Shown here piece after piece: positions 6,305 through 15,819 of a stretch of DNA of 48,230 bases. The notes under the pieces were generated by a model. It was not told the DNA's origin and searched no databases. It saw nothing but the letters and a program-made list of their open reading frames with translations. Within the stretch, counting starts at the first letter, position 1. Each line of letters starts with the position of its first letter. The translations under genes and the position numbers were made by a program. The stretch lies in the NCBI GenBank assembly GCA_017848635.1, contig JAFIHK010000100.1, positions 1 through 48,230 on the forward strand, given 5' to 3'. The DNA comes from Bacteroidales bacterium (GTDB taxonomy: Bacteria; Bacteroidota; Bacteroidia; Bacteroidales; UBA932).

Positions 6305-7073
6305 AGATATTTACAGAAGAGTTTTACCGGCAGTGATTGCAATTTTACTGCCGGCTCTTCTCTTTTCAGCACCGGGAGTTGAACGGTTGAAGGTAAAGGT
6401 TATAGAGAGTTACAACCACGATCAGACCGCATATACTCAGGGACTTTTTTTTATCGGTAATCAACTCTACGAGAGTTGTGGAGAGTACAAAAGGTCAACT
6501 TTCCGAAAGGTCGATCTTACAACCGGAAAGGTTCTTCAAAAGATATCATTCCCCGCACAATATTTTGCTGAGGGGGCGGTGCATCTGAACGGTAAAATAT
6601 TTGTTCTCACATGGAGAGAGAGAGTCTGTTTTGTTCTCGATGCCAAGAGTTTTAAAAATATAAAATCGTTTTATAATCCCAAGATTGAGGGCTGGGGGCT
6701 TACTACCGATGGGAGTGCTTTAATAATGAGCGATGGAAGCTCTTTCTTGTATTTTATGAATCCGGATAATTTTACCGAGAAGAGTAAAATTGAGGTAAAA
6801 CTCAACGGAAGAGCTGTGCAGTATCTTAATGAGCTTGAATACATTAACGGTGAGATTTGGGCAAATGTCTATCAGTCGGACAATATTTTGATAATCAATC
6901 CTAAAACCGGAGCTGTAAGAGCTGTGGTAGATTGTAAAGATCTTTTACCAGAAAGCGAGAGAACACCCAATACAGATGTCCTTAACGGTATTGCCTGGAA
7001 CGAATCGACAAAATCGCTCTACCTGACCGGAAAGAATTGGCCAAAACTTTTTAAAGTGGAAGTTGTGCGCTGA
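6291..7073 (+). CDS. Glutaminyl-peptide cyclotransferase (glutamine cyclotransferase), exported
   Basis: 260 residues. A signal peptide (YRRVLPAVIAILLPALLFSA) precedes a five-bladed beta-propeller of the plant/bacterial glutamine cyclotransferase family, which turns N-terminal Gln of secreted proteins into pyroglutamate. Family signatures are present: AYTQGLFF, EGWGLTTDG, YLNELEYINGEIWANV and LNGIAWN. In Bacteroidetes many secreted proteins are predicted to begin with Gln after signal cleavage, so a periplasmic role fits. The start overlaps pyrG by 14 bases; an alternative ATG is at 6297. The 3' end overlaps the convergent methyltransferase gene by 23 bases. Confidence 0.88.
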   Translation: MGMYKDIYRRVLPAVIAILLPALLFSAPGVERLKVKVIESYNHDQTAYTQGLFFIGNQLYESCGEYKRSTFRKVDLTTGKVLQKISFPAQYFAEGAVHLNGKIFVLTWRERVCFVLDAKSFKNIKSFYNPKIEGWGLTTDGSALIMSDGSSFLYFMNPDNFTEKSKIEVKLNGRAVQYLNELEYINGEIWANVYQSDNILIINPKTGAVRAVVDCKDLLPESERTPNTDVLNGIAWNESTKSLYLTGKNWPKLFKVEVVR

Positions 7074-7779
7074 CATTGTGTCGCTTTCCGTTGATCCCCT
7101 TAAATCTTTTTACAATGAAACCGCTCGCCCTGAGAGCCTCTTTTACCGATCCCTTGGATGAGTAGGTAACGAGAGTTGCTCCAGGAGAACACATCTGCGC
7201 AACTCTTTCGAATATCTCCCGGCTCCAGAGCTCGGGCTGAACATTTGGAGAGAATGCGTCATAATATACAAGATCAACACCTTTGATCCCGTAGAATTGA
7301 GTGAAGTCCTCTCCAATCTTGTTAAGATAAAATCCGGGGATAATCTCTGATATCTCATCCCATTTAGCCGATATCATGCTCTCTTGTATGCTCTTTATCT
7401 TATTTTCGCTAAGGTTTGGGAAGAGGGCGCTTTTAAAGATAACCTCAGAGTGGTTGAGCAGATGGTACTCTTCGGGAGTTAGCGGATATTTTTCAACTGC
7501 TGTATAATTCACCCCGGGAGCAATAGTTGAATCACTTGAGAGGTTTACAATGTGGCAGATTGTTAACAGAGTGTTAAGCCCGGTACCGAACCCCATTTCG
7601 AGTATATTTATCTCTTTACGGCAGTTAACAGAATCGTTGTAAATTCTCTTCAACCCATTGTTTATGAAGATGTGAACAGACTCCTCAAGGGCTCCCGATA
7701 CTGAGTGGTAGTGCTCTCCTATATCTTCCATGTACATTGTGGCACTCCCATCGGCACTAATTATGACATTACGGCGCAT
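7051..7779 (-). CDS. mnmD: MnmD-like tRNA wobble-uridine methyltransferase (MnmC N-terminal domain family)
   Basis: 242 residues from ATG at 7779. This corresponds to the methyltransferase half of MnmC (DUF752), which completes 5-methylaminomethyl(-2-thio)uridine at tRNA position 34. Seen are NILEMGFGTGLN (SAM-binding motif I, 58-69), VDLVYYDAFSPN (168-179) and TYSSKGSVKEALRASGF near the C-terminus. No FAD domain follows, so it is the stand-alone MnmD form. The frame is open further upstream to 8427, but that extension is antisense to secA and lacks homology. The ATG at 7779 has a TACATTTG box just upstream. Confidence 0.85.
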   Translation of the reverse strand: MRRNVIISADGSATMYMEDIGEHYHSVSGALEESVHIFINNGLKRIYNDSVNCRKEINILEMGFGTGLNTLLTICHIVNLSSDSTIAPGVNYTAVEKYPLTPEEYHLLNHSEVIFKSALFPNLSENKIKSIQESMISAKWDEISEIIPGFYLNKIGEDFTQFYGIKGVDLVYYDAFSPNVQPELWSREIFERVAQMCSPGATLVTYSSKGSVKEALRASGFIVKRFKGINGKRHNVSAQLPL

Positions 7780-7801
7780 ATTTTCATTGGCAAATGTTTT
7801 G

Positions 7802-7809
7802 CAAATGTA
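7802..7809 (-). promoter_or_regulatory. -7 box for the mnmD-like gene
   Basis: Minus-strand TACATTTG matches TAnnTTTG, 22 bases from the ATG at 7779. No clear TTTG -33 element is seen upstream. It lies in the divergent interval with secA. Confidence 0.45.
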
Positions 7810-7829
7810 TAAGTTTCCTGCTATTTTGT

Positions 7830-7837
7830 TACCTTTG
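7830..7837 (+). promoter_or_regulatory. -7 box for secA
   Basis: TACCTTTG matches TAnnTTTG and lies 32 bases before the secA ATG. The nearest TTTG (7798-7801) is 28 bases away, longer than usual, so the -33 contact is uncertain. Confidence 0.45.
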
Positions 7838-7869
7838 TGTGTTACAATCGAAAATAAATATAATATATA

Positions 7870-10800
7870 ATGGCAATATTTACCAATATCCTCAAATCGC
7901 TGTTTGGTTCCAAGTCGGAGAGAGATCTTAAAGAGATTCAGCCACTTGTAGATAAGGCTCTGGAACTTTACGCAACAATTGATAAGCTTTCCCATAATGA
8001 ACTTAGAGCTCATACCGATCAAATAAGAAAAACCATATCTGACAGAATAGCAGATGACGAAAAGAGAAAACTTGAGTTGAGGACAAGACTTGAGGATGTT
8101 ACTATTGATGTTAGTGAGAAGGAATCTCTTGCAACGGAGGTAGATAAGCTCACCAAGCAGATAGATGAAAAGATAGAAGAGGTTCTTCTCGAGGTTCTCC
8201 CTGCTGCATTTGCAATTATGAAATCTACTGCAAGGCGCTTTAAGGAGAATCAGTTTATCGAAGTTACTGCAACCGAGAGAGACAGAGATTTTTCCGCAAC
8301 ACACGACTACGTTAAGATAGAGGGCGATAAAGCTATCTGGGAGAATAACTGGATAGCGGGGGGAAACAGAATCACATGGGATATGGTTCACTACGATGTC
8401 CAGCTCTTCGGAGGTGTTGCTCTTCATAAGGGAAAGATTGCTGAAATGGCAACAGGTGAGGGTAAAACACTTGTGGCTACATTGCCTGTTTTCCTAAATG
8501 CACTTGCCGGAAAGGGAGTTCATGTAGTCACTGTCAACGACTACCTCTCAAAACGTGACTCGGAGTGGATGGGCCCTCTATATCAATTCCACGGGCTTAA
8601 AGTTGACTGCATAGATAAGCACGACCCAAATTCCGATGCCCGTAAACGTGCCTATAAGGCAGATATTACCTTTGGTACAAATAACGAATTCGGTTTCGAC
8701 TATCTTCGTGACAACATGGCAATAAACCAGAACGATCTGGTTCAGAGAAAACACCACTATGCAATTGTCGATGAGGTTGACTCGGTCTTGATTGATGATG
8801 CCAGAACCCCTTTGATCATTTCCGGCCCGGTTGAAAAGGGTGATGATCAGCAATTTATGGAGTACAAGCCTTTTGTGGAGAGAGTATACAACGCTCAACG
8901 ACAGCTTGTGACAGGCATCCTGAATGAGGCGAAGAAGAAGATATCGGAAGGTAACGAGCAGGAGGGAGGAGTACTTCTGTTGAGAGCATATAAAGGGTTG
9001 CCTAAATACAATCCGCTCATTAAATATCTCAGTGAACAGGGAGTTAAGCAGTTACTTCTCAAGACCGAGAATGAATATATGCAGGATAATAACAAAAGGA
9101 TGCATATCATTACCGATGACCTCTTTTTTGTTATTGAAGAGAAACAAAAATCTGTAGAACTTACCGACAAGGGTCACGAACTGGTCTCACAGAGCCTTAG
9201 TGATCCGAGATTCTTTATTCTGCCCGATATCGGATCGGAAATATCTGAACTGGAGAAGCAGAATCTCTCCCCGGATGATAAGCTAAAAGCTAAAGATGAG
9301 TTGCTTACAGAATTTGCGCTCAAATCGGAAAGAGTACATACCGTTAACCAGCTTCTCAAGGCATACACTATGTTTGAGAAGGATGTTGAGTATGTTGTAC
9401 TTGACAATAAAATTAAGATTGTAGATGAGCAGACAGGTCGTATCCTTGAGGGGAGAAGATACTCCGAGGGACTTCACCAGGCTATTGAGGCAAAAGAGAG
9501 CGTAAAGGTTGAGGCTGCTACACAGACATTTGCAACGATTACTCTCCAGAATTACTTCAGAATGTATCACAAATTGGCAGGTATGACAGGTACTGCCGAA
9601 ACTGAGGCGGGAGAGTTTTGGTCAATATACAAACTTGATGTTGTTGTAATTCCAACAAACAGGCCGATTATAAGAAAGGATAATGAAGATCTCATATATA
9701 AAACTAAGAGAGAGAAGTATAACGCTGTTATCGACGAGATTGTCAATCTTACCGAGAAGGGCAGACCTGTTCTGGTTGGTACCACTTCGGTAGAGATCTC
9801 AGAGCTTCTTAGTAAAATGTTGAGATTGAGAGGTATAAAACACAATGTCCTCAACGCCAAACAGCACGCAAGGGAGGCGGAGATTGTAGCTGAGGCCGGT
9901 CAACCATCTGCCGTTACAATTGCAACCAATATGGCCGGTAGGGGTACCGACATCAAACTCGGCCCTGGTGTAAAAGAGGCCGGTGGTCTTGCAATTATAG
10001 GTACTGAGAGACACGATAGCCGTCGTGTTGACAGGCAGCTCAGAGGTCGTGCAGGTCGTCAGGGGGACCCAGGTTCTTCAAGTTTCTATGTTTCACTGGA
10101 AGATGATCTCATGAGGCTCTTCGGCTCCGAAAGGATCTCAGGCCTTGTAGACAGAATGGGGCTTAAAGAGGGTGAGGTGTTACAACACTCTATGCTCTCG
10201 AAATCCATCGAGAGGGCTCAGAGAAAGGTTGAGGAGAACAACTTCGGTATCAGAAAAAGATTGCTCGAGTACGACGACGTTATGAACTCTCAGAGAGAGG
10301 TGATCTATAACCGCCGCCGGAACGCACTATACGGAGAGCGAGTAGATGTGGATATTCAGAATATGATGATAGACTACGCCGATATTCTGGTTCAAACTAA
10401 TTTCGGCAAACTCTCTTTTGAAGATTATCGTTTTGAGATTATGCGCCAACTCTCCATAGAGCCTGAAATTGCTGAAGAGGAGTACACCAAATTGTCGGAA
10501 GAGAAGGCCTCAGAGAGATTGCTGGAGGATATTCAGAGCGTATATAAGAGAAGGACGGAGACTCTGGTTCAGCAGGCCTGGCCTATTATGAAACAGATTT
10601 ATGAGACACAGAGCGCCACATATGAGAATATTGCAATTCCTGTAGGAGACGGGAACAAGATGATTCAGATAGTGGTTAATCTTAAAAAGGCTTATGAAAG
10701 TCAAGGGCGTGAGGTTGTAAGATCGCTTAACAAATCCATCACCCTTATGATGATTGATGAGTATTGGAAGGAGCACCTTCGCGAAATGGATGATCTCAAA

Positions 10801-11151: not shown

Positions 11152-12532
11152 TATATTGATTATCGGATCGGGTCCGGGCGGATATGTTGCGGCTATAAGG
11201 GCTGCACAGCTCGGTTTGTCGGTCTCAGTTGCGGAGAAGGATGATCTCGGCGGGGTGTGTCTTAACTGGGGATGTATCCCTACTAAGGCCCTCCTTAAAA
11301 GCGCGCAGGCGCTTCACTATTCAAAAAACTCAAAAGAGTATGGAGTAGAGATCTCGGGAGATGTAAAACCCGATATATCTGCGATTGTAGCAAGGAGCCG
11401 GGGTGTTGCCGGAAATATGAGCCGGGGTGTAGAGTATCTGTTTAAGAAGAACGGAGTGAATCTGATAAAGGGTTTTGCTTCAATAGTATCTCCCGGAGAG
11501 GTAAAGATAACTGCAGATGATGGGAGTGTTCAGCATATATCTGCAAAACACATTATTGTAGCTACCGGAGCCTCTGCTGCATCCTTGCCGTTTGCACCTG
11601 TAGACGGGAAAAATGTAATCTCATATAGAGGTGCTCTTGTACCGGAAACTATTCCTTCGAAGATAGCAGTTATCGGATCAGGAGCTATCGGAAGTGAATT
11701 TGCGTGGTTCTACCGCTCAATGGGTTCTGAGGTTGTACTTATAGAGTATCTGGATAACATTATACCACTCGAAGATGAGGAGGTATCTGCCCAGCTTTCA
11801 AGATCATTCAGGAAAGCCGGAATTAAAGTTATGACATCTGCTAATGTAAAGGGTGTCAGTCTGGATTCGGGTAAACCTATCCTTACCGTGGAGACTAAAA
11901 AGGGTGTTGAAACCATTGAGGCAGATGTTGTTCTGTCAGCCGCCGGTGTAAGACCAAATACCTCTGGTATTGGTTTGGAAGAGGTCGGTGTCAATATGGA
12001 GAGAGGCAAGATAGTTGTAAATAGTTTGTACGAAAGCTCAGTTAAGGGTATCTTTGCAATCGGAGATGTAATCAATACTCCCGCTCTTGCTCACGTCGCA
12101 TCGGCCGAAGCTGTAAAATGCGTTGAGGGGATAGCCGGAATGACTCCTGAGCCTATCGATTACAATAATATTCCATCTTGTATTTACACCTCGCCCGAGG
12201 TAGCATCTGTAGGTATTACCGAAAAAGCTGCCAAAGAGAAGGGGATCAATTACAGGGTCGGAAAATTTCCGTTCACTGCATCCGGAAAGGCGGCAGCAGC
12301 GGGAGAGAGAGATGGTTTTGTAAAACTGATTGCAGATGCTGATACCGATGAAATTATCGGAGCTCATCTGATAGGTTACAATGTTACTGAAATTATCTCA
12401 GGAGTTGTTACAGCCAGAAGATTAGGGGTTAAAGCTAAAGATATTATAAACACAATACATCCTCATCCTACAATCAGTGAGGCAGTTATGGAAGCTGCTG
12501 CCGCTATTCACAATGAGGTTATTCATATATAA
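11138..12532 (+). CDS. lpdA: Dihydrolipoyl dehydrogenase (E3)
   Basis: 464 residues from ATG at 11138; an upstream in-frame ATG at 11084 lies deep in secA and precedes the Rossmann start, so I reject it. This flavoenzyme reoxidises lipoamide in 2-oxoacid dehydrogenase or glycine-cleavage complexes. Visible are [13 protein letters not shown] (FAD), the redox pair in [13 protein letters not shown] (Cys41, Cys46), [14 protein letters not shown] (NAD), FAIGDV, and HPHPTISE with catalytic His443 and Glu448. No E1/E2 genes are in the window. It overlaps secA by 14 bases and precedes the bactofilin by 6 bases. Confidence 0.95.
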
Positions 12533-12538
12533 AAGAAT

Positions 12539-12922
12539 ATGGCTAAAAATGAAATTGTAACACAAGTCTATGAAGTTAACCGTATTTCCTGCGGAACCGA
12601 AATTAAAGGGAGCCTAATCTCTTCCAGTGATATAAGACTTGATGGCTATTTTGAGGGAAGGCTGATAACTTCGGGAAAACTTGTTGTCGGAGAATCGGCA
12701 AAGCTGCTCGGCGATGTAGTGTGCCGCAGTTGCGACAATTGGGGAGTTATGGAGGGTAAGTTAGTTGTTAAGGAGATCTTTGGACTCAAGAAAACCGGTT
12801 CGATAACAGGAAATATCGGATGCGAAAAGATTTTCATTGAGGAGGGGGGCGTTTTTAACGGCTCCTGTAAAATTATCGATGAACAGACTTTCGAGGAGTT
12901 AAAGGTTAAATTTTCTCAATAG
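12539..12922 (+). CDS. Bactofilin (polymerising cytoskeletal protein)
   Basis: 127 residues of the bactofilin/DUF583 family, which self-assembles without nucleotide into filaments that organise cell-wall enzymes. The core is a right-handed beta-helix of short repeats such as GTEIKGSLISSSDIRLDGYF, GKLVVGESAKLLGDV and KKTGSITGNIGCEKIFIEEG. The N- and C-terminal tails are short and disordered-looking. It follows lpdA by 6 bases. The stop is TAG at 12920-12922, and the same frame then remains open for 48 codons into the terminator (see findings). It converges with an actin-like gene. Confidence 0.88.
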   Translation: MAKNEIVTQVYEVNRISCGTEIKGSLISSSDIRLDGYFEGRLITSGKLVVGESAKLLGDVVCRSCDNWGVMEGKLVVKEIFGLKKTGSITGNIGCEKIFIEEGGVFNGSCKIIDEQTFEELKVKFSQ

Positions 12923-13025
12923 CTATTTTCTTCTATAACAGATCCTGGAGATGATGCCAATGAAATCCTTTTTAAACAACTTGGTTTCAGATACACTCCT
13001 CTGCCTGTAAGAGAGATTTTAAGAC

Positions 13026-13065
13026 AAAAAAAAGACCGGCTGATTAATGCCGGTCTTTTTTTATT
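13026..13065. terminator. Bidirectional intrinsic terminator between bactofilin and the actin-like gene
   Basis: A perfect 10-bp stem (AAAGACCGGC at 13031-13040, GCCGGTCTTT at 13049-13058) with an 8-base loop is flanked by A-rich DNA on the left and T-rich DNA on the right. It can therefore stop transcription from both convergent operons. Confidence 0.93.
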
Positions 13066-13099
13066 ATAATACTTTATTAATGTATACGATTTATTCAGA

Positions 13100-14209
13100 T
13101 TAAAGTCCGCTGTTGTCAACACCGTTATCGTTCGAAATGATGCTTAAGCAAGTATTGGCATTTCCAATATCGATTCCGACATATGCTACATTATCTTTAT
13201 CCTGATGGTAAGAGAGAGAGTCTCTGCTCTCTTGTTGAGAGTTCTTATATTTAGAGTAGAGAGCATAACCTACAGATGCACACTTCTCAGGATGAGACTG
13301 AATAGTTACAGAACATACTCCTCCGAACTCCTCATTAAACAGGTTAACCAACTCCTGGTGGTACGCACCTCCGCCTACAAGAACGATTTTTGAACAAATC
13401 TCAAAATCTTCATCGGTAATATACTTTCTCATAGCAGGTGAAAGTACGTTGGTGTAGTATATCTTCAATGCCTGAAGCTTCTCTTCCGAGAAATCCCTTC
13501 TCTTTCTGTCGATATAGATAAACCCTTTGGTAAAGATCTGATCTATCTGATGGTCGGTCTTAAGTCTCAGGTATGAGTGTTTGTACAGCTCCTGCTGGAA
13601 TACATTAACAGCGTAGTTTATACCGTGCACACTAAATAGAGAGCGGTTAAGAACGCCGTCTGGAGTGCTGACAACTCCCTCAGTGGTACCATAACCGAGA
13701 CTGATGATAATATAGTTTTCGTTTGAAGGATTCTCCCCTTTTCTGATAGCATAGTCGCAACCTAAAATCTCCGGCATCACGTGAACAGATGCAACCGGTA
13801 CGAGGGTCTGCTCTGTAATCATATTGCCAAGATCATCTGCCCTGTAATAGGTGATTATTTTGTCTGACTTGAAGTACTCTGCTGCCTCATCTTTATTATA
13901 CTGGAATGTTGCAAAAGGGAAACCTGTTGTAATAGCAAGCTTTGGAAATACAGAGCTCTTAGTATTTTTAACACTCTCGTTAAGGGCGAGAACCAGTGCA
14001 GATTGGCTAATAAGCTTGTAGTCGGTGTCTGTTGGAGAAGCGTTAATTGATTTGTGAGGAGATACCCCCTCAGTAAATGCCTGCAGACCGACGATGTAGT
14101 CAACGCCATCCATCTTGATTTTTGAAAATCCCAGGATGGAGTCATTCCTTGTTGAATAGTCTCTTAAAGTTGCTTCGTAAACACTTGGGAATAATAAAGT
14201 CTTTATCAT
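13100..14209 (-). CDS. Actin-like ATPase (ParM/Alp-like) with circularly permuted order
   Basis: 369 residues. Actin-fold motifs are recognisable but in permuted order. The N-terminus begins directly with LLFPSVYEA, which in ParM/Ta0583-like proteins follows the first nucleotide-binding hairpin. Then come DGVDYIVGLQA (34-44), the phosphate-2 region IISLGYGTTEG (168-178), the adenosine motif KIVLVGGGAYH (274-284) and the usual family end ASVGYALY (311-318). After a hydrophilic linker (about 321-340) the C-terminus carries VAYVGIDIGNANT (341-353), the phosphate-1 motif that normally opens these proteins. The phosphate-2 Asp is Ser170. An in-frame stop lies just upstream of the ATG, so no canonical N-terminus is hidden. 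It is the last gene of the DUF4199-GT2 operon. Its function is unknown; it could be a filament-forming ATPase. Confidence 0.75.
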   Translation of the reverse strand: MIKTLLFPSVYEATLRDYSTRNDSILGFSKIKMDGVDYIVGLQAFTEGVSPHKSINASPTDTDYKLISQSALVLALNESVKNTKSSVFPKLAITTGFPFATFQYNKDEAAEYFKSDKIITYYRADDLGNMITEQTLVPVASVHVMPEILGCDYAIRKGENPSNENYIIISLGYGTTEGVVSTPDGVLNRSLFSVHGINYAVNVFQQELYKHSYLRLKTDHQIDQIFTKGFIYIDRKRRDFSEEKLQALKIYYTNVLSPAMRKYITDEDFEICSKIVLVGGGAYHQELVNLFNEEFGGVCSVTIQSHPEKCASVGYALYSKYKNSQQESRDSLSYHQDKDNVAYVGIDIGNANTCLSIISNDNGVDNSGL

Positions 14210-14224
14210 ATACTTAAAATTTGA

Positions 14225-15190
14225 TTATATTTTCTCTTTAATTTTATAATTATTTCTCTCTATACTGTTTCTTGTGACAAGTTCTGCAACGAACCCGGTT
14301 AAGAACAGCTGCATGCCTATTATTAAGGCAACTAGTGCGATATAGAACAGAGGTTGTGCTGTTACAGCTCGGTATGCTCCTCCGTTAGCCTGGGTAATCA
14401 GCTTATCTGCAATAATGTATATTGTTGTAAAAAAGCCAATTATAAAGGAGAGTGTGCCTGCAAGACCGAAAAAGTGCATCGGTTTCTTTCCGAATTTTGC
14501 TAGAAACCATAGGGAGATTAAATCTAAAAATCCATTTATAAACCTGTTCAGTCCAAATTTACTCTTTCCATATTTTCTGGCTCTGTGAATTACAACTTTC
14601 TCGCCAATTTTTGAAAAACCGGCCACTTTTGCAAGGTAGGGGATGTAGCGGTGCATTTCGCCGTAAACCTCTATGTTTTTAACCACTTCAAGTTTATAGG
14701 CCTTAAGTCCGCAATTCATATCGTGAAGTTTAATTCCGGTAACCTTCCTTGCCGTTGCGTTATAAAGCTTTGAGGGCAGATTCTTGGTCAGTTTATCGTC
14801 ATACCTTTTCTTTTTCCATCCCGAAACCAGGTCGTATCCATCCGCTGTAACCATTTTGTAAAGATCGGGAATCTCTTCGGGGCTATCCTGAAGATCGGCA
14901 TCCATAGTAACTACCACTTCGCCCTTTGCAAGTTCAAATCCACAGTATAGGGCAGCTGATTTACCGTAATTTCTCCTGAATCTTACCGCTTTGACCGGAT
15001 ATTTTAGAGATAGAGACTGGATGACACTCCAGGATGTGTCGGTACTCCCATCATCGATAAGAATAAATTCGTATGAGAAATTGTTTGCTCTCATCGTAGA
15101 ATCGGTCCACTCCAGAAGTTCCGGAAGTGACTCCTCTTCATTGAAAAGAGCAGTGACGATGGAAATATTTAGATTATCACTATTACTCAT
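14225..15190 (-). CDS. GT2-family membrane glycosyltransferase (DPM1/GtrB-like)
   Basis: 321 residues. The GT-A domain has SIVTALFNEEESLPELL, FILIDDGSTD (43-52) and the metal-binding MDADLQDSPE (96-105). The sequence ends with two strong transmembrane helices (about 242-265 and 280-305). This layout matches polyprenyl-phosphate glycosyltransferases such as GtrB and ArnC-like enzymes, which load a sugar onto undecaprenyl phosphate at the inner membrane. Donor and acceptor cannot be told. It overlaps the upstream DUF4199 gene by 4 bases and is followed after 15 bases by the actin-like gene, so all three are likely one transcript. Confidence 0.88.
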   Translation of the reverse strand: MSNSDNLNISIVTALFNEEESLPELLEWTDSTMRANNFSYEFILIDDGSTDTSWSVIQSLSLKYPVKAVRFRRNYGKSAALYCGFELAKGEVVVTMDADLQDSPEEIPDLYKMVTADGYDLVSGWKKKRYDDKLTKNLPSKLYNATARKVTGIKLHDMNCGLKAYKLEVVKNIEVYGEMHRYIPYLAKVAGFSKIGEKVVIHRARKYGKSKFGLNRFINGFLDLISLWFLAKFGKKPMHFFGLAGTLSFIIGFFTTIYIIADKLITQANGGAYRAVTAQPLFYIALVALIIGMQLFLTGFVAELVTRNSIERNNYKIKEKI

Positions 15191-15699
15191 TGTTGGTTGG
15201 GGCTGCTAAAAATATCTCCTTTTTTTGTAAAGTTTGCAATAATCGAAGATACAATAACTCCGAAAATTGAAAGGTATATCAGTTGAATAATAAACAACAG
15301 GTGAGGGAAATATTTAAGTACTGTGTCAATTGTCGATGAATCTGTAACACCACGGGCACTCATTGCCTGGTTGATCGATTCAGCTATAACATCAATATCG
15401 CCCGGGAAGAGAAGTGCATAGTGAAGGAAGAAGTAGCAACCGGTAAAAAAGGCAGATAAAACAGATGTGAGTGTAGCAAACTGGAACCCGTTTGAGTAGG
15501 TAAAAAGTTCGAACTCTTTTGCATACTCTTTTGTGTAATACATTAAAAGCCATATTGTTCCCACAATCTTAACTATCCATAACAGAATAACAACAAATGT
15601 TGGAGGTGTAAGCATACTGTTAATTAACGTATAGATGATTGTAATCAGGGCTAATAGAAGAGCTCCTGTTGTGGCAATATTCCATTTTCGGTTTTTCAT
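15187..15699 (-). CDS. DUF4199 family membrane protein
   Basis: 170 residues with four predicted transmembrane helices (about 9-28, 34-54, 73-97, 131-155), including the KEYAKEFELFTYSNGFQFA segment between helices 2 and 3. It matches the DUF4199 family, found mainly in Bacteroidetes and without known function. It begins an operon with the GT2 glycosyltransferase (4-base overlap) and the actin-like gene. An exact consensus promoter precedes it. Confidence 0.8.
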   Translation of the reverse strand: MKNRKWNIATTGALLLALITIIYTLINSMLTPPTFVVILLWIVKIVGTIWLLMYYTKEYAKEFELFTYSNGFQFATLTSVLSAFFTGCYFFLHYALLFPGDIDVIAESINQAMSARGVTDSSTIDTVLKYFPHLLFIIQLIYLSIFGVIVSSIIANFTKKGDIFSSPNQQ

Positions 15700-15730
15700 T
15701 GCAGATGAGTTTGGGATTGGTTAATTCTCT

Positions 15731-15761
15731 CAAAAGTAGTAATATTTCTAGGTTTGGCAAA
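15731..15761 (-). promoter_or_regulatory. Promoter of the DUF4199-GT2-actin-like operon
   Basis: On the minus strand TTTG (15761-15758), 19 bases, then TACTTTTG (15738-15731) match the Bacteroidetes -33/-7 consensus exactly. The -7 box ends 32 bases before the ATG at 15699. Confidence 0.8.
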
Positions 15762-15762
15762 A

Positions 15763-15793
15763 TTTATGATTTATAAAAAAAAGATTACCTTTG
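15763..15793 (+). promoter_or_regulatory. Promoter of thrS
   Basis: TTTA (15763-15766), 19 bases, then TACCTTTG (15786-15793): the -7 box is exact and the -33 box has one mismatch. It lies 26 bases before the ATG at 15820. It supports that start over the in-frame ATG at 15754, which would fall upstream of the promoter. Confidence 0.7.
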
Positions 15794-15819
15794 CAAAGGT
15801 TTCAAAAATTACGATTTAT

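Follow-up and report, generated by a model that had tools for sequence, protein, structure and literature searches.

The roles of the phosphate-1, phosphate-2, adenosine-motif and catalytic residues in actins are general knowledge. In ParM, described from plasmids and chromosomes (pCBH ParM, 6ixw; Dh-cParM1, 8x1i; PMC12270681), these motifs follow a canonical order, with an N-terminal phosphate-1 hairpin and a phosphate-2 Asp, and the protein has ParR/parC partners. The archaeal actin homologue Ta0583 (2fsj/2fsk) also shows the canonical order, as does BeeR (8r2n; PMC11929497), a recently described additional bacterial actin of unknown function, which is MamK-related, comes from Verrucomicrobiota and possesses a disordered N-terminal extension. 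Chromosomal ParM-related actins occur in cyanobacteria as CorM (9rmi) and FcmB (PMC12645912), the latter with a demonstrated role in cell morphology that sets a precedent for morphology actins derived from ParM. No permutation is reported for CorM or FcmB in the literature searched, the FcmB paper (PMC12645912) making no mention of one, and no natural circular permutation of the actin family was found there. An initial annotation, made from sequence alone, had known of no described actin with such a permutation, and none was found in the literature searched.

A protein that very probably is so permuted is encoded on the minus strand of the window (the whole 48,230-nucleotide stretch of Bacteroidales DNA analysed) at 13100..14209, as a 369-amino-acid ORF with an ATG start, recognised by ALP_N, phrog_691, an AlphaFold2 (AF2) model and Foldseek. 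The N-terminus reads MIKTLLFPSV, and the motifs run in the order FPS (residues 7–9), E147, SLGYGTT (170–176), VLVGGGAYH (276–284), ASVGYALYSK, linker and VGIDIGNANT (344–353). FPS (14183..14191, minus strand, as for all features of this gene) opens the strand that is third in canonical actins, and its P and S are invariant (43/43). The phosphate-2 loop SLGYGTT, with Ser in place of Asp, lies at 13682..13702, and the adenosine motif GGG (residues 279–281) at 13367..13375. Following ASVGYALYSK, the usual end of an actin-like protein, and a hydrophilic linker (residues 320–340, 13190..13252; expanded only in a subset of Bacteroidales members, as judged by pLDDT and spacing), the chain continues as VAYVGIDIGNANTCLSII. 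The C-terminal phosphate-1 hairpin itself (residues 341–360, 13130..13189) is defined by two model strands and by conservation of the motif.

Both ends of the gene are closed. Upstream, an in-frame TAA at 14225–14227, which is also the stop codon of a GT2 glycosyltransferase gene, stands five codons ahead of the actin ATG. Downstream, two perfectly matching 14-bp inverted arms (13027–13040 and 13049–13062), accompanied by runs of A and of T, form a probable bidirectional terminator in the bactofilin/actin intergenic region (13027..13062), likely to terminate both of these convergent genes. The C-terminal motif therefore cannot be put down to a missed start or to a second, fused actin. The GT2 and actin genes share a reading frame, with one TAA and 15 bases between them (window 14209–14227).

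Profile matches placed the protein among ParM-like actins, in each case without the first strands of the family at the N-terminus: Pfam ALP_N matched residues 3–148 (E 2.7e-7) from profile position 17 on, and PHROG 691 (‘partition protein’, phrog_691) matched residues 4–301 (E 5e-20) from profile position 25. The MreB profile PF06723 gave 13.5 bits, below its cut-off of 27, and a separate full-length MreB was present in 24/24 genomes tested (for example at G000:C138). Single-sequence searches of genome contigs, viral contigs, phages and plasmids returned no relatives above noise, and of the PDB no match; profile searches alone succeeded. Searching 300–399 genomes of the window's family with ALP_N and phrog_691 recovered four close homologues in another genus, and alignments seeded with these four were used for wider profile searches. 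Relatives were thereby detected in 15/295 genomes of the order, 4/295 of the class and 17/247 of other classes of the phylum (counts that include the window's own genome, with some sets overlapping), together with 12 loci in named Bacteroidetes/Bacteroidales MAGs. The family is patchy but spread through Bacteroidota, in many genera and several classes, the profile search having been confined to that phylum; this patchiness explains why 60 close relatives yielded no homologue outside the window's own genome. Two scans found no viral contig encoding a relative, although the closest PHROG comprises partition proteins of phages. A role in anti-phage defence was considered and rejected, there being no PADLOC match.

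The displaced hairpin is a property of the whole family. The phosphate-1 motif lies solely on the C-terminal side in 46/46 family proteins, which span several classes of Bacteroidota and many genera, and N-terminally in none; the PS[VI] strand is never more than a few residues from the start of these 46. Within the motif, GxDxGN[AS]xT, the G, D, G, N and T are invariant in 43/43 aligned sequences. The pattern GxDxGNxxT was found in 2/20,000 random 60-mers of family composition, against 46/46 family proteins near the C-terminus, which excludes a chance origin. When the hairpin was moved in silico to the front and the proteins rescored, every member tested scored higher. Against phrog_691 the scores of 5/5 members increased by 8.0 to 16.7 bits (72.9 to 89.6, 82.2 to 95.1, 67.1 to 75.1, 77.9 to 94.6 and 80.8 to 90.3), the profile start shifting from 25–45 to 3–6; against ALP_N those of 4/4 members increased by 8.0 to 12.0 bits (31.4 to 42.2, 54.3 to 66.3, 34.1 to 44.2 and 39.7 to 47.7), the start shifting from 17–21 to 1. 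With the residues of the moved hairpin shuffled, the gain was only about 1 bit (ALP_N, 32.3 versus 31.4). PDB sequence searches with the family profile also matched MreB in swapped order (331–346 to MreB 14–29, 158–205 to 162–208 and 266–305 to 291–328) and aligned profile positions 329–349 with residues 6–26 of Hsp70s, each match being weak alone. Taking the MreB alignment, the un-permuting and the shuffled control together, the protein satisfies one criterion for circular permutation, in that a pair of its segments fits the parent family in exchanged order. It is very likely, on the evidence of sequence and model and without an experimental structure, that the circular permutation of this actin-like protein of the ParM/Ta0583 type is real and conserved.

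Structure prediction agrees in outline. The AF2 model of the window protein (25-row alignment; pLDDT 86, pTM 0.88) contains the hairpin as strands 341–348 and 352–359, with pLDDT about 90, and a disordered linker segment (331–336, pLDDT below 50). A short-linker member modelled from 43 rows (pLDDT 91.7, pTM 0.90) has its last helix at 298–314 and hairpin strands at 320–326 and 330–336, again with a hairpin pLDDT of about 90. The spacing from a conserved Gly (G314 in the window protein) to the hairpin Gly is 17–18 residues in most members, and 25–38 in a Bacteroidales subset that includes the window. Foldseek with the window model retrieved pCBH ParM (1.4e-13) and Ta0583 (1.6e-13), and the nearest structures for both models were pCBH ParM, Ta0583, Dh-cParM1, CorM and Alp-type (Alp12), with E from 1e-13 to 4e-16. 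The hairpin is predicted to return to its usual place in subdomain IA, an inference drawn from confidence, topology and conservation rather than from coordinates.

The nucleotide site is partly preserved. E147, which aligns with the catalytic Gln/Glu, the adenosine GGG and the phosphate-1 Asp are each invariant (43/43). The phosphate-2 Asp position, which the family profile aligns with the Asp of Dh-cParM1 in the PDB sequence search, is never Asp (Ser in 40, Gly in 2 and Asn in 1 of 43; Ser170 in the window protein), and the ParM-type Lys after the phosphate-1 Thr is absent from all 43, being replaced by small or aliphatic residues (V/C/S/I/T/A among those listed). Since the phosphate-1 Asp/Gly, the GGG and the catalytic Glu are invariant, binding of ATP/ADP is probable, and since the phosphate-2 Asp and phosphate-1 Lys are gone, hydrolysis is likely to be altered; both are inferences, made without binding, turnover or polymerisation data. 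With these two residues lost, the protein could also fail to hydrolyse nucleotide, or to bind it.

These results bear out the core of the initial annotation. Its reading of an actin-like protein with the phosphate-1 hairpin at the C-terminus held, on the strength of the 46/46 conservation, the profile gains, the out-of-order MreB matches and the confident models, and so did its use of the upstream stop and downstream terminator to exclude a misplaced start or second fused actin. Its replacement of the phosphate-2 Asp by Ser170 held too and proves to be a family trait. The outcome that it named as refuting, homologues without the motif or with the motif N-terminal, was sought and not seen in 46 proteins.

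Several members depart from the common form. Three (L066:1222-2514, L067:1219-2514 and L068:1222-2517, all minus strand) carry an additional low-complexity tail of about 85–100 amino acids beyond the hairpin, ending in a conserved R[LI][GH]KFL[KI][TS]G[MT]W that is perhaps a membrane- or partner-binding tag. Another (L050:1117-2505, minus strand; 463 amino acids in total) has a long His/Glu/Lys-rich tail beyond the hairpin (ETHKHESHETHKHE...). In L116 (G427:C131) the permuted actin is split across several frames, with one TAG inside one piece, through either faulty assembly or decay of the gene.

In the window, the actin gene is preceded in the same operon by a polyprenyl-phosphate-type (ArnC/PgfS-like) GT2 glycosyltransferase (14225..15190, minus strand; PF00535 E 1.6e-29, NF007986 E 1.6e-50 but under its cut-off) and by the operon's first gene, a DUF4199 membrane protein (15187..15699, minus strand; PF13858 E 1.3e-10). 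Its convergent neighbour is a bactofilin (12539..12922, plus strand; PF04519 E 5.2e-22), the only one found in the window's genome assembly. All three neighbours had been named correctly in the initial annotation. In the window's clade the conserved order is secA-lpd-bactofilin>-<actin-<GT2-<DUF4199-thrS-infC-rpmI-rplT-lepB, and the bactofilin, convergent and behind the terminator, is therefore not co-transcribed with the actin. Also in the window, an ORF listed at 7051–8427 (minus strand) extends over part of the oppositely oriented secA; the genuine portion resembles an MnmC/MnmD-like methyltransferase (MGFGTGLN), which is conserved as a neighbour at four related loci. No ParR-like gene was found among the genes beside the actin, nor parC-type tandem direct repeats in 12500–15800.

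Across the family these associations differ in reach. DUF4199-GT2-actin order is kept in 8 loci, and close relatives in G124/G184 (L033/L034) have the actin beside ComM and aroB instead. With loci sampled at roughly genus level, bactofilin was found within 1.3 kb of the actin in 11/23, on either side and in most cases as the adjoining gene on the same strand, where chance would give about 0.03 of 23 (treating related loci as independent; sampled genomes had 0 to 4 bactofilins); about half of loci have no bactofilin neighbour. On the unrooted tree, bactofilin adjacency needs at least 6 changes. The GT2/DUF4199 operon is thus limited to the window's own clade of Bacteroidales, and bactofilin linkage recurs across the phylum. 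The initial annotation had proposed that co-occurrence of the DIGN motif with GT2 and DUF4199 be checked; it is confined to that one clade (8 loci), while the motif itself is family-wide. Its suggestion of a surface-glycan or cell-shape system consequently held only in part: because GT2/DUF4199 belong to one clade and bactofilin linkage extends across the phylum, a cell-shape or envelope role is better supported as a general role than surface glycan. Other loci show further arrangements. One genome (G1093:C1) encodes two permuted actins (L107 and L108), about 2.4 Mb apart on the main contig and each adjoining its own bactofilin. In L112 and L113 the order is M23 peptidase-actin-TPR protein-bactofilin-small membrane protein, likely an envelope module. 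The actin-adjacent bactofilin at L090:7412-9022 (plus strand) has 536 amino acids, with a long extra region past the bactofilin domain.

Taken as a whole, these data are best explained, and probably so, by a permuted ParM-type actin of Bacteroidota that works with bactofilin at the envelope. Under this proposal a ParM-type actin would have become chromosomal, then been permuted at the loop between strands 2 and 3, and then gained an envelope role beside bactofilin. The inferred route is tandem duplication or fusion, followed by trimming: the chain would be opened between the second and third strands of subdomain IA, and the hairpin of strand 1, loop and strand 2, which carries the first phosphate-binding loop, would be rejoined behind the C-terminal helix through a linker of a few residues. 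Folding back to its usual place, a packing that is inferred, the hairpin would rebuild the nucleotide cleft in another order. One event in a common ancestor is the simplest assumption, although the tree is unrooted and a single origin unproven. Filaments or oligomers at the inner membrane, with a bactofilin scaffold, would then place envelope-building or -cutting enzymes, putatively the M23 endopeptidase in some species and the polyprenyl-phosphate glycosyltransferase in the window's clade, and the permuted actin would act beside MreB rather than replace it. Gene adjacency is shown; polymerisation, interaction and function are inferred, and for the bactofilin-associated, envelope-organising role taken by itself the balance tips neither way.

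Rival readings of the protein itself can be weighed against this. That the hairpin only appears C-terminal, through a missed start, frameshift or second fused actin, gains some colour from the member broken into frames in its assembly (G427, L116), but with the window gene bounded by its stop and terminator, and the same layout in 46/46 proteins from unrelated assemblies, artefact is as good as ruled out. More elaborately, the hairpin might act in trans, donating strands to the next subunit and completing its IA sheet, such that assembly itself builds the nucleotide site. The expanded linker of the window's subset (25–38 spacing), disordered in the model, could reach a neighbour; most members, however, have only about 5 residues between last helix and hairpin, which favours closure within the chain, and in the confident monomer models the hairpin is ordered. 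This reading is very improbable, and just as remote is its bolder form, in which phylum-wide actins with a detachable C-terminal hairpin would couple filament growth to nucleotide binding by strand donation on an envelope bactofilin scaffold. A closer contest is offered by a pseudo-ATPase scaffold, the fold kept and hydrolysis lost, serving as a static regulator or adaptor (FtsA/PilM-like) and not as a dynamic filament. Change of the phosphate-2 Asp to Ser/Gly/Asn and loss of the phosphate-1 Lys in all 43 speak for it, but the invariance of the phosphate-1 Asp, GGG and catalytic Glu suggests continuing selection on nucleotide chemistry, and this reading is held to be rather unlikely.

As regards function, a chromosomal DNA-segregation system (cParM-like) is suggested by the nearest relatives in sequence and fold, which are partition proteins (phrog_691, pCBH ParM and Dh-cParM1). 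Against this stand the lack of an adjoining ParR-like partner gene and of parC-type repeats in 12500–15800, and the recurrent neighbours, which are bactofilin and, in two genera, M23 peptidase; it is accordingly given very little weight. A plasmid-type partition system (ParMRC) was ruled out by the same absence of ParR/parC. Finally, the actin could position the GT2/DUF4199 lipid-glycan machinery in an operon-specific surface-glycan system, as the DUF4199-GT2-actin order in 8 loci and the 15 bases between GT2 and actin would suggest, but GT2/DUF4199 are absent at all other members, including the close ones beside ComM (L033/L034), which leaves this unlikely.

As far as the literature was searched, no bacterial actin of this kind had been reported before. 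That the permutation is stable and persists across a phylum demonstrates that the active site of the actin fold can be re-wired. With both chain ends at new positions in the fold, the protein is an experiment of nature that bears on the order of folding, on where termini can be placed and on how filaments make contact. Bactofilin polymerises without nucleotide, and its repeated association with the permuted actin suggests an envelope system built on two polymers in Bacteroidota.

Set beside the known systems, the permuted family shares with pCBH ParM and Dh-cParM1 the fold (Foldseek E down to 5e-16, TM 0.71), the ALP_N domain, the GGG and the catalytic Glu/Gln position, but differs from ParM in being permuted, in having lost the phosphate-2 Asp and phosphate-1 Lys, and in having no ParR-like neighbour. 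The fold is likewise common to Ta0583 (E 4e-16, TMt 0.72), at 15–19% identity, and is matched in CorM (E 4e-13) and BeeR; CorM and FcmB, however, have partners unlike those of the permuted family, and BeeR is unlike it in lineage, motif order and N-terminal extension. With MreB the family has in common the actin fold and, by inference, an envelope role, the three matching motifs lying out of order. No actin–bactofilin operon, and no actin-like third component of a bactofilin–M23 morphogenesis module, was found in the literature searched. It is such modules, known from Hyphomonas neptunium (PMC10945521), that L112 and L113 resemble, with bactofilin, and in two genera M23 peptidase, adjoining the permuted actin.
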